Notes under the pieces: generated by a model
The model's database searches: none
Told to the model about the DNA's origin: nothing
The model's input: the letters and a program-made list of their open reading frames with translations, nothing else
In this document: in pieces, positions 2,979 through 62,873 of the stretch
How the letters are laid out: each line of letters begins with the position of its first letter
How positions within the stretch are numbered: position 1 is the first letter of the stretch
Made by a program: the position numbers and the translations under genes
Origin: Chlorella sorokiniana
Lineage: Eukaryota; Chlorophyta; Trebouxiophyceae; Chlorellales; Chlorellaceae
NCBI GenBank assembly: GCA_025917655.1
Contig: CP084611.1
Coordinates: 4,402,001-4,466,000 of the forward strand
DNA: 64,000 nucleotides
Reading direction: 5' to 3'

Positions 2979-4950
2979 ATGGTTCAGGTGGGGAGCTGCG
3001 CATGGCCCGCTGTAGCCCCCAATCAGCGTGGCGGCAGCACTGGCGGAGGGCATCCTATGCGGCCGTCGGACAGGCTCACAGCATTGCCTGGCTATAGTAA
3101 CCCACCAGTAGACGCCGGCAGGCGGCACACACCATTGAGCGCAGCATGACGGCCATGCAGCGGTGCAAGGCGCTGTGCTGCTCGCCTGCTGGCCGTTAGT
3201 TGCAAAATAAGCATCTTATAGGCGCTAATGGCCGGCTGATTGCCATAGCGGTTCCCTGGAAGCCAGGGGCGGCAGCGGCCGCCAGCTCCTCGCTGCGTCC
3301 AGCGCTGGTGAACGCCCTCACTATATAGCGCGTGCTGGTTTCTGCGCCTCTTGTGCAGGGCGGCTACAAGTTCCACCAGTACCAGGTGGTGGGCCGCCAT
3401 TTGCCCACCGAGAAGGATGCGGAGCCCACCATCTACCGCATGAAGCTGTGGGCCACCGACGCGGTGCGCGCCAAGTCCAAGTTCTGGTGAGTGCTTCTTT
3501 CCCGACTCGCTGGTTGTCTGAACATCATCAGCAGCAGCATACTTAGCAGGCTTACAGCAAGGCATGCACGCAAAGCGGCAGACATGCGCAGGCAGCCTCT
3601 GCATGCTGACAGCTGCAGCCTAACTGCAGCCATGTGGGCTCGTAGCAGCTGTTCGCGGTTGCGACAGCAATCAGATCAATGGTCGCAAAGGCGCAGCAGG
3701 AAATTGTGCAGACCATGGCCGGATCGCATGCCAGCGTCACGCATCTCTCCCCGACTTTGTCGTCAGCACAGCAGCACACTAAGCAGTCATGGCAGGCCGC
3801 ACAGTCGCGTCTCATGGCCTTGTGGTTGACCTGCTGCTGTGGCCATGCTGCAGGTACTTCCTGCGTAAGCTGCGGAAGGTGAAGAAGGCCAACGGTCAGA
3901 TTCTGGCGATCAACGAGGTGCGAGGCGGGCGCAGAGCAGGGCATGCATGTGTGCATGGGTGGCAGCTCGCAGCGGCGCTGGCGCTTCTCACACACCAGCG
4001 ATGGGCAGTGGACACGCAGCCGCACAGCCGGCAGGGCCAAGCAGATTGCTTGTCGTACAGCAATCAGCGCAGCTTATTACTCAGACTGCGCTGGCGTCTG
4101 CACAGTAACAGAGCTGTGCTCTTGTGCTCGCCAGAGTCCTGACAGGCAGCAGGGGATTTTTTAGCAGCAGAGGCCGCTGCAGCCTGCAGCAGCAGCAGAA
4201 GCATGCAAGCAGGCCTTGCCTTTGCAGCCTCAAGCTGTCCAAAACCCTAGCAGCAGCAGCAGTCGCAGCTACCGCGGCAGCTGAGACATGCCGAGCCATA
4301 AATACTGTCTCAGAGCTTGCTCCCGCGTCTCACGGCATTGCTGTCACCCTGTTCTCTCCAGCCACCCCTCCTGACACATGGGAAACCTTCCCTATGTTGC
4401 GCAGATCTTTGAGCGCAACCCCACCACGGTGAAGAACTACGGCATTTGGGTGCGGTACCAGTCCCGTACTGGCTACCACAACGCGTACAAGGAGTACCGC
4501 GACACCACTCTCAACGGTGCCGTGGAGCAGATGTACCAGGAGATGGCGTCCCGCCACCGCGTGCGCTCCCCCTGCATCCAGATCATCAAGACCGCCACCA
4601 TCACTGCCTCCCAGGTGCGCGGTGTGCCGCGTCCACGGGGGTCGCAGCAGCGCGCTCATGGCAGGATCACGAGGGGTGGTGCCAGCCCTGCCTCTGCTAG
4701 CAATAATGAGAGCGCGCTGTGTGCTGCCAGCCTGCCCACAGGAAGCCATGGCAGTTTTGCCCGCTGTCGCTGACGCGCCTGGTTGCCTGCTCCCTCCCTG
4801 CCCTCCCGACCGCAGTGCAAGCGCCCAGCAACGCAGCAGCTGCACGACTCCAAGATTTCCTTCCCGCTCACCCGCAAGGTGCTGCGCCCGTCCTCCCGCA
4901 AGTACTGCACCACCTTCAAGGCGGTGCGCCCCAACGTCGCGCTCTTCTAA
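2979..4950 (+). CDS. RPL18A: 60S ribosomal protein eL20 (L18a)
   Basis: Cytosolic large-subunit ribosomal protein with five inferred exons: 2979-2987 (Met-Val-Gln), 3359-3486, 3854-3917, 4405-4614 and 4816-4950. All junctions are GT-AG and in phase. The protein shows the family signature throughout: [97 protein letters not shown] and [19 protein letters not shown]. It ends PNVALF and TAA. The length, about 180 residues, is normal for the family. The tiny first exon is chosen because ATGGTTCAG followed by gtgggg is in phase with exon 2; a different first exon is possible. TATA-like sequence near 3320 lies inside the proposed first intron. Confidence 0.92.
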
Positions 4951-53600: not shown

Positions 53601-56202
53601 GGTTGCTGCTGCTAGATTTGCCTGTTGCTGACTCGGCACGGCTGCCTGTTGTCGGCAGGGGTGGAGGGTGGGCTGTTCCGTCGCCAGTGCCGCCATTCCT
53701 GCTGCTGCTTACACCCTGCGGCCCTTGCACCGCCCCCGACCCCGCGTGCAGACGTGGCTGTGGTGACTGCCACCCGTGACGGCATGAACCTGGTCCCTTA
53801 CGAGTACGTGGTGTGCCGCCAGGGCCCAGCCCAGGCCGCTGCGCCCGGAAACGGCGCCGCGGCGCGCGCCCCGACAAGCGGCACAGCATGCTGGTGGTGT
53901 CCGAGTTTGTGGGCTGCTCGCCGTCGCTGTCGGGGGCCATCCGCGTCAACCCGTGGAGCATAGAGGCGGTGCGTTTCGGGAGGGGGGCAGCTTGATCTGT
54001 GTGGGCGCAGCCTTCAGCCTCACCTCCGTGTGCCTCCTCCTCTGCCGCCACCGACGCCTGGGGAGGCTCCCTCCCGACGCATCTTGCGACACCCCATCCG
54101 CGCCTTGCCACCCTGCCGTGCGCCTCCTCACGCTGAGCTCGTTGTGCACGACCCCCACTCACCCACATGACCACCCTGTTGCCCCCTCCCTCCCTCCCCA
54201 ACCTTCGCAACCCACGCAGGTGCGCGATGCCATCTACGCCGCCATCCGGCTGCCGCTGGTGGACCGCCACATCCGACACGAGAAGCACTGGAAGTATGTG
54301 AGCAACCACACGGTGCAGTTCTGGGCCAAGGTGAGGAGGGGCTGAGGGGGTTGCGGCCGGAGCTGGGGCTGGTGTTTGGATTGGATTGCAGGGGCACGAC
54401 TCTTGCACAGCTGATATAGCCGCCTCGGCAGCACAGGACTGGAAAGGGCCGAGCTGCTGAATGGCCACCGCGGCCGTTTGTGCACTGAAGCCAGGAGCAG
54501 GAAGAAGCAAACGCCAGCAAGCCTCTGGCAGCGCCGTCACTCGGCGGCGGCGCCGCCCTGCCCGCCCGCCGTGGCTCACATATGCGACGCCCTCCCTTCC
54601 TCCCTGCCCCGCAGTCCTACGTGGCCGACCTGCAGCGCTTCACCAAGAACCACTCCAAGCTGCAGTGCTTCGACCTGGGCTTTGCGCTGGACACCTTCCG
54701 CATGGTGGCCCTCACCTCCAACTTCCGCAAGCTGCAGTCTGAGGTGGTGCTCAAAGCGTGCCAGCGGTGAGGGCCGGGTGGTGTGTGCTGCCAGGGCTGC
54801 CAGGGTGCTGGGGTGGGGCGGGTTGGGGTGCGTGGCTTTTGGGCTTGGAAGGGAGGGTGGTGGTGGGGGTTTGCATGTGAGGTAGGGGCTCCAAGTGCGG
54901 GCGCGCTGTGTCAGCCGCCGTGGCCCCTTAACTAGTCCCTCCAGGGCCCTCCTGGCTTTGGAACCTGCAGCTCGGCACCTGCCCAATCCCTGCATGCCTG
55001 GGCTCTAAAGCCAGCTGCTCCTACACTTGACAGTTCCACCGGTGCTGCCACCCTCCACTCTTTACCCTTGCCCCCCTCCAAAAACAACTCACATGAAATT
55101 CGCAGCGCATCCCGCCGCGTCTTCCTGCTGGATCACGACGGCACCCTGGTGGCCCAGTCCACCATCTCCAGCAGGCCCTCGCAGGAGGTGCTCAAGTGAG
55201 CGCCACGTCGGCCGGCACAGTTGCCCTGGCGGCAGCGTCAGGGGCGGGGCAAGCCGCTCCCCGCATGCCCGCCTTGCCCCGCATGCCTTGGTCCGCCTGT
55301 ATTCCACTCCGACACGCACGCTCCTACACACGCATGGCCTGATGTTGCGCCCGCCCCTCTCCCCCCGCCCCCAAACCCCCACCCTCCCTCGCCATCACCC
55401 GCAGCATGCTGTCGGCGCTCACCTCCGACCCGCGCAACAGCGTCCACATCATCTCGGGCGCGCCCGCGCTGAGCTGGCAGACTGGTTCGGCTCCGTGGTG
55501 GGTGCAGCTTGCGCCCAGGGGTGGGGTTGGGGTTGGGGTGGGGGAGGGCTGCTTGTCTTATCGGTCCAGTGGCACGGGTCTGCCTGTGCTGTGGCGGGCT
55601 CCCACAGACGGGCACTCCGCCTCACAATCAAGCGGGACCCCCACTCACAAGCAGTTTTACGTGTTGCCCCCACCCCCACCCCACCCCCGGCCCCTCAAAC
55701 AGGAGAACCTGGGCCTGGCGGCGGAGCACGGTTTCTACTGGCGCCCCAGCGCCGCAGCGAGTGGGTGGTGCAGGACCCAGAAGCGCGCTTCGGCTGGAAG
55801 GACATCGTGCTGCCCATCCTGCAGGCAAGAGGCGGCCGGCCTGCCTCTTGCTGCTGGCCCCAGAGAGCAGCGCTGCTGCGGGCGCCTGCGTCGCCAGGAC
55901 ACGCCGCGCCCGCTGCCCCACCAATCGCGGCGATCCCGGCCGCGCCCTGCCCTCCTCGCCGCCTCCGCGCTGGCGGCGCACCGCCCACGCCGCCGCTTGG
56001 CCGCCTGCCTGCCTTGCCCGCAGGTGTACACCGAGTCCACCGACGGCTCCTTCATCGAGGCCAAGGAGAGCGCGCTGGTGTGGCACTACCGCGACGCCGA
56101 CCCGACTTCGGCTCCTGGCAGGCCAAGGAGCTGCTGGACCACCTGGAGGGGGTGCTCAGCAACGAGCCCATCGAGGTGGGTGGGTGGGTGTGTGGGTGGG
56201 TG

Positions 56203-56235
<33 letters not shown>

Positions 56236-57362
56236 GGGGTGAGCTGGGGCCGGCATGTTTTGACTGCGTGTGGCTGTTGTTTCTTGGGGAGGGGGTGAAG
56301 CCAGGCTGGCATCGGGGTGGGCGTGTTGTTGGCGGGATGTGGATGTGGGTGTGCCTTCGCAGAGCATGCTGGCCCACCCTCACAGAGGCCCGCATGCCCT
56401 CACGCGCCCCCATCCCCCGCCCGACGCCGCAGGTTGTGCCCGGGCAGACGATAGTGGAGGTGAAGCCACAGGGTGTGTCCAAGGGCAAGATGGTGGAGAG
56501 GATACTGCACGAGCTGACCGCCGGCGCGGGCGACGCCTCCCGACTTTGTGCTGTGCATCGGCAACGACCGCTCAGGCACGCCGTTGCTGCTGCTGCTGCT
56601 GCTGTGCCCCGTCGGCACCCCCACCCCTTCCTGCTCGCATGGGCAGCTTCGAGTGGCACCGCACATGGCATATGCAGCTCTGCGGTTGCAAAAAGCGCTT
56701 GCGCTCCTGCGTCTGACGCTTAGAATGCACGGGTGGCGGGCCTGGTGAAGCCGGGCGGCAGCACGGCTTCCTCCGCTGCGGCCGACGTCGCGCGCCGCAC
56801 CCCCGGCGCCCAGCCATGGTCATGGAATCAGCCCCTGACCCCGCAACGCCGCCCTCCCCACCCGCTGTCTTTCCATTGCATCACCCCTGCCGCAGACGAG
56901 GACATGTTCACCGCGACTGAGAACATGCAGTTCAGCCCGCACATGCCCGCCGAGGTGTTTGCGTGCACAGTGGGCCAGAAACCCAGCAAGGCGCCCTTCT
57001 ATGTCAACGATCCAGCGGACGTGGTGGCGACGCTCAGCAAGCTGGCAGAGGCGCGCGCCCGACGCCCCCCGCCGCCTCGCCTTCTGTGTCGTTCGCATGA
57101 AGAGGGCGGGCGGAGCGTGGCCCCGCCGTGCGCAATTTTCCCGCTACCCCCTTTTTCCCCGCACCGCCCCTGGATTCTTCTCCACGACGTGTTGAGTGTG
57201 AAGGCATGCTGGCAGTGGGTCCGCATGCATGACCCCGATACTGTGACCCAAACTAAGGCGGTCAGACGGGCTTGGGGGCGGCAGCAGGCAGGGGCAGCCC
57301 CAGCGACCCCCTCCCTCCTTGCGCTTTGCGCTTGTTGCGACTCACGATCTCAAATGCTCTGA
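50697..57362 (+). CDS. TPS: Class II trehalose-6-phosphate synthase/phosphatase-like protein
   Basis: Two-domain protein: GT20 glycosyltransferase then HAD phosphatase. Start MQFSRKSFSNLAALAQGDF at 50697. The TPS part has IFVTNHLPLKV, YYKRFCKQQLWPILHYLIPL (junction across an intron), DDYVWVHDYHLLVLPSLLRK, DLIGFHTFDYARHFLSCCSR, VLLGVDDMDVFKGIELKLQ, RDGMNLVPYEYVV and SEFVGCSPSLSGAIRVNPWS. The TPP part has LLDHDGTLV, HIISGAP, GLAAEHGFYWRP, EVKPQGVSKGKMVERIL and CIGNDRSDEDMF. Two arginines that bind UDP-glucose and glucose-6-phosphate in active TPS are replaced (His in TNHLP, Asp in VDDMD), as in plant class II proteins. The TPS half is therefore probably regulatory, while the phosphatase motifs look complete. 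About 17 exons, with several one-base frame losses. The end is uncertain: the frame as read stops at 57362, but a one-base shift would stop at 57098-57100. Confidence 0.9.
56205..56232. repeat. GT dinucleotide microsatellite in a TPS intron
   Basis: About fourteen GT units within an intron of the TPS gene, flanked by GGGT-rich sequence. Likely simple-sequence slippage. Confidence 0.75.
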
Positions 57363-57912: not shown

Positions 57913-58212
57913 ATGAACACGAAAATTGACGGCAGTAGTAGTCGTTTTAGCAGCAAGAACACTAGGCACCAGGCGCCGGAGCCGCCGCTGCCACCCATTG
58001 TGGCCGAGCTGCGCCCTTGGGCCGCTGTCAAGTTCACCGCAGGCTTCTGCGACGTGAGTGGCCGCTGTGTGCTTGCGGATCTGGTTGGTCGTCTCTCTGG
58101 TGCCCCCAGCTGGTTGTGTTTTTCGCTGTGATCAATGCATGGGGTGCTACCCGCGCAGCCGCCTCATCCCGTCCTCCCCCTCCCTGCGCAGTGCGTGAAG
58201 AAGCCATCATAG
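57913..58212 (+). promoter_or_regulatory. Conserved AdoMetDC upstream ORF (53 residues, spliced)
   Basis: A small peptide-coding uORF in the 5' leader of the AdoMetDC-ODC mRNA. Exon 1 is 57913-58053 (starts MNTKIDGSSSRFSSKN). A GT-AG intron spans 58054-58191 (donor gtgagt, acceptor gcgcag). Exon 2, 58192-58212, encodes Cys-Val-Lys-Lys-Pro-Ser and TAG. The Ser-rich start, the block ELRP..A.VKF and the end CDCVKKPS line up with the conserved plant AdoMetDC uORF as I remember it (DVRP..GIKKF and an NC-[AV]-RKPS end). In plants this peptide stalls ribosomes when polyamines are high. It ends about 160 bases before the main start. I found no overlapping tiny uORF like the one in land plants. Confidence 0.87.
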
Positions 58213-58303: not shown

Positions 58304-58325
58304 TTTTTTTTTTTTTTTTTTTTTT
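58304..58325. repeat. 22-base poly(T) run in the leader
   Basis: An uninterrupted run of 22 T residues between the uORF stop and the main AdoMetDC start. It may lie in the mature leader, as poly(U), or be a tract before a further splice acceptor. Its length is likely to be unreliable in sequencing. Confidence 0.8.
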
Positions 58326-58373: not shown

Positions 58374-61300
58374 ATGACAGGCGCGGCCGACGTCTTCCCT
58401 GCCCCGTCTTCGAGGGCAGCGAGAAGCGCATCTCAGTCACCTTCTCAGCAGGCTCTAGCACCCCCCCGCCGGGCCTCCGCGCCCTCACCCGCACCCAGCT
58501 GGATGCGATGCTCGACCTGGCGGCCTGCCAGATCGTCTCCTCCCGCTCCAACCAACACTTTGACGCATACGTGCTGTCCGAGTCCTCCCTCTTTGTCTAT
58601 CCCGGTGAGCTGCAACGCTCTTGAGGTTCAGGGGCTCAGCAACGCCTGCTGCACCCGCCCCCAACTCTCGCCAGCTTGGCCGGCTGTCTGACCAGTGCAG
58701 CCGCAGCAGCTTCAGCTGCTCTCAACGCCGACCCCCCCCTCACACACACACACATCACCGCCACCACCACCCCCTCTTCTGCCCCTGCAGACCGCATGGT
58801 CCTCAAGACGTGCGGCACCACCAAGCTGCTCAGCTGCGTGCCTCACATGTGCCAGCTGGCAGCCGGCCTGGCCATGGCGCCCGCCGCCGCCAAGTACACC
58901 CGCGCCTCCTTCCTCTTCCCCGAGCAGCAGCCGGCTCCTCACACCTCGTTCGACGAGGAGTGCGCCGCCCTGCGCGCGGCCTTTGCCTCCCTGCCCTCCT
59001 CCTCTGCCTACGTGCTGGGCGACGGGCTGAACGGCCTGCAGTGGCACGTCTTTGTGGCAGGTGCGCCCCTCCTCCCCAGCCGTGCACAAGGCCTGCTATG
59101 CAGGCGGCACCCCTGCGCTTGCACAACGCCCTGCCTCCAAGACGCCGTCCCGGGCTGCATGGCTCTAGCCCGCCCGCTTCCGCTCCTTGACGCCCGCCTC
59201 ACCTGTCGCATGCCCCCTGTGGCGCCCCCTGTGCAGGCGAGGAGCCCTCGGCTGCTGCGCTGCACTGCCGCCGCCCGCTGCACACGCTGGAGGTGTGCAT
59301 GACGGGCCTGTCCCCCGCCAAGGCCGCCCAGTTCTTCCGCTCCGAGGCCTACGTCTCCGCCCGCCACACCACCCTCGCCTCGGGCATCCAGGCCCTGGTC
59401 CCCGGCGCGGGTGCGGCGCGCTGCAGCCCTCCCCGCCCCGGCCTGAATCACACCTGCCCTCGTCAAACCGGGGCACGCCGGCCTGCCTGGCCGCAGCCCA
59501 CGCTGCTGCTGCACGGCACCTGCCGCATTTCTACAGCTGGGCTGTACCGCTCACGCGACCTCTCTGCCCTGCACCCGTACCGCAGACATTGACGACTACG
59601 TGTTTGAGCCGTGCGGCTACTCCATGAACGGCGTGGAGGGGGCCACCTTCTCCACCATCCACATCACCCCGAAGACGGCTTCTCCTACGCGTCGTTCGAG
59701 CTCTGCGGCTACGACGCCGACAGCGTGGACGCCGCGGCTCTGGTGGCCCGCGTGGCGGACGTCTTCCAGCCGCGCAGCATGTCGGTGGCGCTGTCGGTGG
59801 ACGGTGCCGACGCAGGCAGCGCCGCCGCCGGCTGGGGCGCCGCCTTTGCGGGCCCGGCGGCTACGCCTGCCACTCTGCTTCTTACCAGGAGACGCGCTGC
59901 GGCGGCTGCGTGGCCTACCTTGTGCTGGAGGCGGGCGCCGGAGCCGCCGCCTCGGGCGAGCGCTCGCCCGGCGGCGCCGCGGCCAAGGGTGCCGCCAGCG
60001 ACAGCGACGGCGGCTCGCCGCGCGCCGTGGTCAAGCGCTTCCCCTCCTTCTCCGCCGCCGCCTCCTCCCTGCTCTCCGGCTCCGTGCTCACCGACCTCGA
60101 TCTGCTGGCCGGCTCCGACAACGCCTCCGACAACGCCTCGGTGCGCAACGGCCTGTGCAACTCGCTGCTCATCGACCCGGCCGACATGGGGGTGGAGGAC
60201 GTGCTGGCCCTGCACGCCGCCGCCCACCTGCCCAGCGGCTCCGCCGCCGCCCTCGACCTCCACGCACGCCGCCTCATCGCTGAACACTCGCTGGAGGTGT
60301 GCTGGGGGATGGGTGGGCCTGGGGCTGTGGGAGGTGGGGTGTGTGTTGGTTTGGTGGTTTGTGTGGGGGATTGGGACCTAGAATCTGAGGGGGATTGGGA
60401 CCTAGAATCTGAGGCGGGCGGCAGCCGCAGCGGCCTGTACGGCGGCCAGGGCACCCCTCGGCCCCCAAGCGCCCAGTCCACCGGCGAGCTGTTTGAGCCT
60501 CGTGCCAAAATTTTCCTCCTTCTTCCCCCTCCCCCTTGCAGGACAACTTCTACGTGGTGGACCTGGGTGCCCTGCAGCGCCTGTACCGCGCCTGGCGCGA
60601 GGCCATGCCCGGGTGCACCCCCACTATGCAGTCAAGTGAGCGCGGCGCCCTGGGTCAGGGCCGCATGGCGCAGCCTGCGCCCCCGCTGCCAACCCGTTGT
60701 TGGCCTGTTGGGCCAGGCCGCGTGGAAGGGGTGCTGCCAGCTGCCTCGGCGGCTGACTCCCAGCCAGGCCAGTCCAGGGGGTCACCCGCCAGCCCTTCTC
60801 TGCTGTCACTCCCCAACAATGCCAACCTGCCTGCCCCGCTCGCCGCGCCCCCTCAGGTGCAACCCCGACACCGCCATCCTGGCCACCCTGGCAGCCCTGG
60901 GCGCCGGCTTCGACTGCGCCTCCGAGGCTGAGATCCGCGCTGTGCTGGGGCTGGGCGTCTCCCCAGCCGCATCGTGTTTGCCAACCCCTGCAAGCGCCCG
61001 CGCGACATGCGCTGCGCCGCCGACCGCGGCGTGGAGCTCACCACCTTTGACACTGAGGCGGAGCTGGTGAAGCTGGCGCGCTTCGCCCCCGACGCCCGCG
61101 CGCTGCTGCGCATCCGCGCCGACGACCCGGGCGCGCGCTGCCAGCTGGGCAACAAGGTGCGCCGCGGCAGCTGCTCCTGCTGAAGCGGCGGCTTGCCCTC
61201 GCTGCACGGGCATCTCCGAGCCGCCAACAGCATCTACCTGCCTGGCCCTGCGACATCCCTGCCCAGCCTCCTCCCGCACCTTGCTTAAGCTCTCGTCCCC

Positions 61301-62873
61301 CACCCAAGCCTCCACCCGTGTCCCGGTCCCTCAATCCCCCGCCCTCCCAACCACCCCTCCCCCTCCCATCACCAACCACCCCCACCCCTGCCACTGTTGT
61401 CACCGCAGTACGGCGCCGAGGTGCACGAGTGGGAGCCGCTGCTGGCGGCTGCCGCGCAGCTGGGCGTGGCGGTGGAAGGGGTGGCCTTCCACGTGGGCTC
61501 TGGCGCCACCAACCCCGCCGCCTTCTCGCACGCCGTGGAGCTGGGCCGCGCCGCCTGGGACGCCGCCCGCGCCCACGGCTTCGACATGAAGGTGCTGGAC
61601 ATCGGCGGCGGCTTCTGCGGCGGCCGCTTTGGCGCCGACGGCCGCGTCGACCTGGGCGGGGTGCCGGAGGCGGTCAACTCCGCGCTGGACGCTTTCTTCC
61701 CGGAGCACGAGGGTGCGCGGCTGGCCTCGCCCGCTGCTCTGTGTGTGGGGGGGGGGGGCCGGGCGGGCGGGCATCCTGCCCCGCGCCTGCCCATGGATGA
61801 TGTGGCAGCCTAGAGTGGTGTGTCCGCCGTGGCGGGTTGCTGGGGAAGGAACGGCCATCACGGACTGCCTGGCACTTGCCCTCTCCCCAAGTCCCGGCCT
61901 GTTCCCCAAATTCTGCCATTCATCAGCCCCACCTCCCAAAACACACACACACACCACCACCACCACCCTACCCCTGCAGCAGGCCACGTTCGCGTCATCG
62001 CCGAGCCCGGCCGCTTCTTCGCCGAGTCCATCGCCACCATGGGCTGCCTGGTGTACGGCCGCCGCGTGCGCACCGACCCCGGCGCCGCGCTGCCCGAGAG
62101 CCCCGCTGCCCGCGCCCGGGGCGCTGGCCATGCGCCGCCGCGTGCACTCCTCCCGCCGCCTGGCGGCCTACGCCGGGGAGCTGGAGGCTGGCGAGGTGGA
62201 GGTGGTGGGCTACGATTACTGGGTCACCGACGGGCTGTACGGCTCCATGAACAGCGTGATGTACGACCATGCCACGCTGGCGTGCAGGTACGGTACCGCC
62301 ACATCGACTCACACCCTGCTTTTTCACAGCTGCCTGCGGGCAAGGCAGCGAGCAAATGCCTGGCTGCACCCTCACAGCCGAACGGGAGCCTGGCACCTGG
62401 CTGGGGCGCTGACCACCGCGCCACCCCTACGCCCTGCCCTGCAGGCCTCTGCTGGCCGACGGCGCTGCCCCCTCCGCCGACACCTTCTCCTCCACCGTGT
62501 TTGGGCCCACCTGCGACGGCCTGGACACCCTGATGGTCGATGTGCAGCTGCCGGAGCTGCAGGTGCGCCTCTGCCGCCTGCCACAGCCACTGCTTCATGC
62601 CACCAGCCTGCGACAGCCTGCGCTCGCCGCGGTGTCTGTGAAAGAAGTATGTTGGGGTCGGTGGCTGCGGCGCCCGGGGCCCCTGCCTGCAGCCGCGGCC
62701 GCCCTGGCCCTGGCCTGCTGTCCTGCTGATCAGCCGCCTGGAGTGCCCTGCGCAGGTCGGCGACTGGCTGCTGTTCCCCTCCATGGGTGCCTACACCCTC
62801 TGCGGCGCTCCAAGTTCAATGGCATCGATGCCACCGCGCCCCCACCTTCTACGTCTGCTCTCAACAGCCCTGA
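58374..62873 (+). CDS. AMD1-ODC1 fusion: Bifunctional S-adenosylmethionine decarboxylase-ornithine decarboxylase
   Basis: One protein carries both rate-setting enzymes of polyamine synthesis. ODC makes putrescine; AdoMetDC makes the aminopropyl donor for spermidine and spermine. Exons: 58374-58604, 58791-59060, 59237-59410, 59586-60296, 60542-60635, 60857-61156, 61409-61712, 61983-62287, 62445-62562 and 62756-62873; about 875 residues. The AdoMetDC half has [21 protein letters not shown] (Glu-Ser self-cleavage site making the pyruvoyl group), [22 protein letters not shown] and [20 protein letters not shown] linker of roughly 125 residues rich in Ala, Ser and Asp follows inside exon 4. The ODC half has [25 protein letters not shown] (PLP lysine), [56 protein letters not shown] and FGPTCDGLD (catalytic Cys), ending TFYVCSQQP. 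Frame is kept across the junction intron (phase 0). About eight single bases appear lost, mostly in C or G runs. Confidence 0.92.
60365..60412 (+). repeat. Perfect 24-bp tandem duplication in the fusion-junction intron
   Basis: Two exact head-to-tail copies of gggggattgggacctagaat followed by ctga, near the start of the intron between the linker exon and the first ODC exon. It is a recent duplication with no obvious function. Confidence 0.9.

Follow-up and report, generated by a model that had tools for sequence, protein, structure and literature searches.

A nuclear gene for a fused AdoMetDC-ODC in Chlorella sorokiniana, and the distribution of this fusion among green plants

The window analysed here, a stretch of 64,000 nucleotides from Chlorella sorokiniana (GenBank assembly GCA_025917655.1, contig CP084611.1, positions 4,402,001 to 4,466,000), carries what is, judged from its sequence, a nuclear gene of a Chlorella- or Micractinium-like green alga for a bifunctional S-adenosylmethionine decarboxylase (AdoMetDC)-ornithine decarboxylase (ODC), and we regard the fusion of these two polyamine enzymes as real. 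Taking all lines of evidence together, it seems very probable that the gene encodes a self-cleaving fusion protein, that its translation is, somewhat less surely, subject to feedback through an upstream open reading frame (uORF) resembling a plant AdoMetDC leader, and that it descends from an ancestral fusion that has repeatedly been split.

Reading the three forward frames gives a model of 10 exons with GT/AG introns, from a start codon at 58374 to a stop codon ending at 62873. The exons total 2625 nt and the conceptual protein, read across the frame breaks discussed below, has 876 residues, consisting of AdoMetDC, a linker of about 112 residues and ODC. The parts of the gene are as follows:

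58374..58604, + strand: exon 1, with the beta chain of AdoMetDC and the cleavage site; a single frame break lies close to its start (three-frame reading)
58580..58585, + strand: Glu-Ser self-cleavage site, residues 70/71 (the potato beta chain, 1mhm_B, aligns to query residues 11-70, and the alpha chain, 1mhm_A, from 72)
58791..59060, + strand: exon 2, AdoMetDC, with KTCGTT (three-frame reading, tblastn)
59237..59410, + strand: exon 3, AdoMetDC (three-frame reading, tblastn)
59586..60296, + strand: exon 4, C-terminal part of AdoMetDC, the linker and the beginning of ODC, in three frames with two frame breaks (three-frame reading, tblastn)
59937..60272, + strand: linker, residues 344-455 (G+C by codon position; 69-71% identity to Micractinium)
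60297..60541, + strand: junction intron, phase 0 (three-frame reading)
60542..60635, + strand: exon 5, N-terminal part of ODC, with one frame break (three-frame reading)
60857..61156, + strand: exon 6, ODC, with the pyridoxal phosphate (PLP) lysine, whose codon is split by the preceding intron; one frame break (three-frame reading, tblastn)
61409..61712, + strand: exon 7, ODC, with FHVGSG and DIGGGF (three-frame reading, tblastn)
61983..62287, + strand: exon 8, ODC, with AEPGRFF and TDGLYGS; at least one frame break (three-frame reading, tblastn)
62445..62562, + strand: exon 9, ODC, with GPTCDGLD (three-frame reading, tblastn)
62756..62873, + strand: exon 10, ODC C-terminus and stop codon, two frame breaks (three-frame reading, tblastn)

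Pfam searches with the conceptual protein place PF01536 at residues 12-337 (331 bits against a cut-off of 22.2, covering profile positions 3-339 of 343), PF02784 at 472-710 (240 bits, cut-off 23.4) and PF00278 at 776-849 (59.5 bits, cut-off 23). Both domain sets thus lie on the same strand between 58374 and 62873 with AdoMetDC first, as a first-pass annotation of this DNA had it, and its phase-0 junction intron is borne out at 60297-60541, as is a linker without in-frame stop, the frame concerned being open from 59628 to 61070. The exon at 59586-60296, which had been described as running from the AdoMetDC C-terminus into ODC, does so between GT/AG boundaries, but it is not one uninterrupted frame, since tblastn with the Micractinium protein P0001 needs three; the motif STIHITPE, given there as a plain reading, is obtained only by crossing a frame break in exon 4. 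Two smaller features of the introns can be mentioned: the AG acceptor of exon 8 is in tandem (cagcag, 61971-61983) and could yield a splice variant differing by one residue, and the junction intron contains about two copies of a 24-base unit without mismatch (60365-60414).

The conservation of the linker and its G+C content by codon position argue strongly that it is translated. It is identical to P0001 at 77 of 112 aligned residues (69%) and to a second Micractinium protein, P0002, at 79 of 111 (71%), compared with 79-84% identity between the enzyme halves and these two proteins; for the more distant relatives P0004 and P0007 the linker identities are 41% and 53%. G+C at the first, second and third codon positions is 0.741, 0.598 and 0.964 in the linker, as against 0.728, 0.593 and 0.642 in the next intron. 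In an alignment of 23 relatives the blocks SPRAV.K..PSF, SDNASDN and VEDVLALH recur in the close ones and fade with distance. The doubled SDNA of the linker is encoded by a 12-base repeat at 60113-60139. We dropped the open frame itself as proof of translation because 23% of 112-codon frames in the window are likewise free of stops (2096/9096 on the + strand, 2093/9096 on the - strand).

The gene can be read in this way only by crossing frame breaks within the exons as assembled. There are at least eight of them (one each in exons 1, 5 and 6, two each in exons 4 and 10, and at least one in exon 8); the first-pass annotation was silent on them, and they weigh against an intact gene. They were counted from the translations, and tblastn shows those of exons 4, 6, 8 and 10; exon 4, for example, matches P0001 at 59582-59674, 59668-59856 and 59835-60296 in three different frames. 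Most of the breaks resemble the loss of one base in a run of C or G (the one in exon 8 does not), and the pieces of frame used in the gene model contain no stop. A stand-alone ODC paralogue on contig 5 (locus L014) is broken too, its match passing from frame 1 (3331-3561) to frame 3 (3507-3686) with a further break at 4096-4099, and an HSP70 gene on contig 3 gives overlapping matches in different frames (C3:1270819-1270971 and 1270967-1271083), whereas no breaks of this kind interrupt the alignment of the predicted proteins of two Micractinium assemblies. The breaks are therefore probably assembly errors.

If they were instead real mutations, the gene would be a pseudogene in decay. The density of breaks (at least eight within 2625 nt of exon) fits such a reading, and putrescine could then come from the stand-alone ODC and the arginine route described below. 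This locus is, however, the only AdoMetDC match in the genome, and spermidine synthesis normally requires an AdoMetDC; moreover, the protein is still 80% identical to P0001 over its length, and the absence of stops, the resemblance of most breaks to single bases lost in C or G runs (that of exon 8 apart) and the similar breaks in the ODC paralogue and HSP70 all speak for an intact gene. A recent pseudogene is therefore very unlikely. The other way of dismissing the fusion, namely that an AdoMetDC gene and an adjacent ODC gene were wrongly joined across an intergenic or untranslated linker, seems at least as improbable. It can draw on the low value of an open frame in a window this rich in G+C, on an in-frame ATG within the linker (MGVEDV) and on the stand-alone forms of both enzymes in other green algae; it has to contend with the identity of the linker to the Micractinium proteins, the high G+C of its third codon positions and the recurrence of the SPRAV-K-PSF and SDNASDN blocks in relatives. 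The first-pass annotation had proposed looking for cDNAs that end in the linker, and in the relatives this evidence favours the fusion: among the 120 fused proteins listed from the search described below, at least 16 bear transcript-assembly names, one assembled transcript with a single open reading frame spanning both halves. For these relatives the adjacent-genes explanation is already refuted, if their transcript assemblies are right.

By its sequence, the AdoMetDC half of the C. sorokiniana fusion is of the eukaryotic class 2 type, and the ODC half is a eukaryotic enzyme of the alanine-racemase fold, predicted to act on L-ornithine. Among solved structures human ODC is the best match of the ODC half (E 3.6e-97), while the AdoMetDC half is nearest to 1mhm_A (E 7.3e-62), which we take to be potato AdoMetDC, followed by human AdoMetDC (6.3e-48). 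In an alignment of 57 fused proteins (P0001 numbering), E75-S76, C90 and H254 of AdoMetDC are invariant and S241 is conserved in at least 90%, and K504, C831, D832, D789 and Y860 of ODC are invariant; all have their counterparts in the conceptual protein. These presumably include the Glu-Ser pair of self-cleavage and the catalytic Cys, Ser and His of AdoMetDC, and the PLP lysine, the catalytic Cys and the substrate-binding Asp pair of ODC. The chain would accordingly cleave itself between Glu70 and Ser71 into a beta chain of 70 residues and a pyruvoyl-tipped alpha chain of 806 residues bearing the PLP-dependent ODC at its C-terminus, so that both of the enzymes supplying spermidine synthase with its substrates would come from a single translation event.

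At the positions that we take to be R18 and R114 of potato AdoMetDC the conceptual protein has R and K, and in the structure alignment Ser and Leu stand in place of human E15 and D174. The latter two have been named as the putrescine residues of human AdoMetDC, and the plant enzyme is described as not needing putrescine (PMC5201418). Because of these replacements and the basic residues at the R18 and R114 positions, the sequence points to a plant-type AdoMetDC half, for which no stimulation by putrescine is expected. An allosteric cross-talk between the two enzymes, as had been suggested for this protein, thus finds no support. The title of one cited paper on Plasmodium contains the words 'without domain-domain interaction', and another cited title mentions inserts modulating domain interactions.

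The fusion is not peculiar to C. sorokiniana but is, on present sequence data, a widespread architecture of green plants. A search with the whole protein, which scored 8000 candidates, returned 652 matches; all of the best 120, which are those listed, carry PF01536 and PF02784 and also align to both halves by BLAST. Two Micractinium assemblies contain predicted full-length relatives (80% and 77% identical), and the listed matches include fused proteins from the green algae Micractinium, Nannochloris, Auxenochlorella, Prototheca, Coccomyxa, Trebouxia, Myrmecia, Apatococcus, Tetraselmis, Bryopsis and Cymbomonas and from the streptophytes Klebsormidium, Closterium, Marchantia, Riccia, Adiantum, Ceratopteris and Selaginella. 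Nephroselmis, Chlorokybus and Mesotaenium, names read from cut or coded labels, are fused as well. Where these proteins are named in databases, the names refer to ornithine decarboxylase or (S-)adenosylmethionine decarboxylase, that is to one half, or to something else. The earlier statement that plants use separate genes does not hold as a rule in view of Marchantia, Riccia, Adiantum, Ceratopteris, Selaginella, Klebsormidium, Closterium and Chlorokybus (the last under a coded name), but stand-alone AdoMetDC does occur in flowering plants, a moss, Chara, Chlorophyceae and Pedinophyceae; the two further protein searches were limited by length and mostly excluded long fused proteins by design.

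Neither viruses nor bacteria qualified as a source of the fusion. The nine viral loci matched do so with the ODC half only, and none of 20 loci from a contig scan with stand-alone AdoMetDCs has an ODC match in the fetched flanks. Among these loci, L033-L051 carry class 2 AdoMetDCs of the eukaryotic type and come from Shewanella and a small number of other bacteria, and an AdoMetDC piece on a metagenomic contig labelled Rhodospirillales (L052) is 59-60% identical to green algal sequences and probably an algal contaminant.

To place the fusion in time, trees were built for both halves: large ones with 97 of 133 two-half proteins, the protein of the window, 118 of 119 stand-alone AdoMetDCs and 95 of 97 ODC-only proteins, and smaller ones of 50, 53, 48, 35 and 36 sequences picked mostly for being nameable, some organism names being our reading of coded or cut labels. 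The ODC trees are without seed-plant ODCs. In the AdoMetDC tree of 53 sequences there are six changes between the fused and the stand-alone state, all forced by well-supported branches. Fused proteins occur among the chlorophytes as well as among the streptophytes, with stand-alone ones scattered between them, and the fused Chlorokybus protein is sister to the other streptophytes. One of the six changes rests on a 302-residue model read as Asterochloris, which may be a fragment, and one adjoins an odd protein, P0056. The AdoMetDC half of P0056 pairs with Pedinophyceae, and its ODC half lies near stand-alone ODCs in the large tree or near Tetraselmis in the 50-sequence tree; it could be a second fusion, a swap or a chimaera. 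Rooting with outgroups, a weak procedure here given very long outgroup branches, puts the AdoMetDC root beside a single trebouxiophyte, a position that we disbelieve, and well-supported branches then force four changes rather than six. Because of the changes in the AdoMetDC tree and the fused proteins on both of its sides, the data fit best with a fusion in the common ancestor of Chlorophyta and Streptophyta that was later split repeatedly by loss of the ODC half.

Several results tell against so simple a history. In the 50-sequence ODC tree the fused proteins need two changes, a single change appearing in 21% of bootstrap trees; removing two sequences leaves one change, but with support of 50/9. 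We therefore did not consider a single origin of the fused ODC to be demonstrated by the ODC tree. The large trees are more mixed, with 12 changes among 216 AdoMetDC sequences and 21 among 193 ODC sequences, perhaps in part because of incomplete gene models. These results leave some room for independent fusions in chlorophytes and streptophytes, each lineage having joined its own ODC to AdoMetDC, which we consider unlikely, though less so than the two explanations dismissed above. Such an origin would agree with the lack of support for holding the fused sequences together in the ODC trees, with the variable length of the stretch between the two BLAST matches (65 to 207 residues among 89 complete fused proteins) and with the ODC tree rooted on very distant viral ODCs, in which core-chlorophyte stand-alone ODCs are nested within fused ones (13 sequences with Tetraselmis, support 98/96). 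This nesting is equally well explained by a stand-alone copy born from a fused gene. A tree constrained to keep the fused and the stand-alone ODCs of trebouxiophytes together could not be rejected (p 0.057). Independent fusions are harder to reconcile with the same domain order in the fused proteins seen, with the position of Chlorokybus and the presence of fused proteins throughout the chlorophyte side of the AdoMetDC tree, and with the 193-sequence ODC tree, where a single group of 129 sequences (support 0.951) takes in 97 of the 98 fused ones, although 32 members of this group are ODC-only, some perhaps being pieces of fused genes.

Upstream of the start codon, and outside the span covered by the first-pass annotation, lies a uORF in two exons:

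57913..58053, + strand: uORF exon A, 47 codons, similar to AdoMetDC leaders (Pfam PF08132 on the spliced peptide)
58192..58212, + strand: uORF exon B, encoding C-V-K-K-P-S-stop, following a GT...AG intron at 58054-58191

Spliced, it encodes 53 residues and ends 162 bases before the start codon; a run of 22 T lies between the two at 58304-58325. The only Pfam match of the spliced peptide is PF08132 (E 0.0034, profile positions 7-51 of 51, 45 residues), which neither the unspliced form nor seven other peptides match. The uORF intron sits where the predicted proteins P0057, P0111 and P0197 (Chlorokybus, Closterium and a flowering plant) depart from the leader. AdoMetDC uORFs of plants have 50-54 residues and conserved ends, and this uORF group has been reported as far as Ulva and Chlamydomonas (PMC2075485); the length, conserved C-terminus and stop position of the present uORF are those of the group. 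It is therefore a likely candidate for a plant-type AdoMetDC leader, and since ODC is made from the same mRNA as AdoMetDC, its control would extend to ODC. Less surely than for the cleavage, we propose that it lowers translation when polyamines are high, as the plant leader does, and that ODC would thereby share this polyamine feedback.

The identification has points against it. The PF08132 score of 17.7 bits falls short of the cut-off of 25, and a genome search with PF08132, which had no positive control and is blind to a spliced peptide, found nothing. A leader model of our own, built from three sequences, gave 2.7 bits for the candidate and more for two unrelated open reading frames of the window (7.2 and 3.9); we rejected it as too weak, since it ranks unrelated sequences above the candidate. 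Polyamine repression has been described where another, tiny uORF shares one base with the small one (PMC7503886), and for this angiosperm type of arrangement no listed upstream ATG opens a reading frame ending at 57913.

The fused gene would not be the sole source of putrescine. In the 38.8 Mb genome (15 contigs) AdoMetDC has its single matching locus here, and the stand-alone ODC paralogue on contig 5 (L014, 2486-4965; PF02784) is matched by both proteins tried, P0248 of Chlorella ohadii and P0250 of Micractinium. A third PF02784 locus, on contig 3, reads as a putative diaminopimelate decarboxylase. Matches to arginine decarboxylase and agmatine deiminase point to the presence of an arginine route. 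Because of the stand-alone ODC and these matches, putrescine supply does not appear to be tied to AdoMetDC, and the earlier idea that equal output of the two enzymes would replace separate control finds no support; the stand-alone ODC and the arginine route would provide putrescine outside the control of the uORF. No antizyme match was found in the genome by a search that had no positive control. As to the surroundings of the gene, pieces of a trehalose phosphatase lie upstream on the + strand in two frames (55473-57362; PF02358, 24.0 and 24.6 bits, cut-off 27), and the window contains no tRNA and no Rfam match at gathering score.

As is the case for the C. sorokiniana protein, AdoMetDC comes first and ODC second in Plasmodium. 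There, too, both decarboxylases are encoded on one open reading frame (PMC5004602), here only across the frame breaks, and the Plasmodium organisation has been called unique (PMC4816425, PMC3912857). The likeness lies in the architecture; the sequence here is that of a green plant and is accompanied by stand-alone ODC and arginine-route matches and by a leader-like uORF. The gene resembles the plant AdoMetDC genes (SAMDC; PF08132, uORF homology group 3) in that its AdoMetDC half has potato as the nearest solved structure and in its 53-residue uORF, which ends in C-x-K-K-P-S-stop and has its intron where leader-bearing proteins depart from the leader; unlike them, it has ODC fused behind, a leader below the Pfam cut-off and no overlapping tiny uORF. 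The bacterial SpeD-SpeDC also unites AdoMetDC and ODC activity in one chain, but it is built from two SpeD homologues and has two pyruvoyl groups (PMC10407285), whereas here a eukaryotic class 2 AdoMetDC is joined to a PLP-dependent ODC of the alanine-racemase fold. Database proteins from Micractinium conductrix, Tetraselmis, Marchantia, Riccia and others have the same three Pfam domains and belong to the same gene family. We found no description of a green AdoMetDC-ODC fusion in the literature searched, which mostly excluded subscription papers, nor in the available portions of PMC12803844, PMC9992855, PMC10407285, PMC6356823, PMC8503589, PMC6934065, PMC2075485, PMC5201418, PMC5004602, PMC7503886, PMC4816425 and PMC3912857.

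We think it somewhat probable that in the ancestor of green plants a single protein, controlled by a polyamine-sensing uORF, comprised AdoMetDC and ODC, that the separate genes of seed plants and Chlamydomonas are later splits, and that the Plasmodium fusion is thus not unique. If the fusion is ancestral, the 'standard' separate arrangement of plants would be the derived one, and the separate control of putrescine and spermidine would become a question of gene splitting, for which Marchantia, ferns and algae offer test cases. Among the new leads the likely control of both enzymes by the uORF is the most useful: if the leader-like uORF is functional, ODC, and not AdoMetDC alone, would be under translational polyamine feedback.

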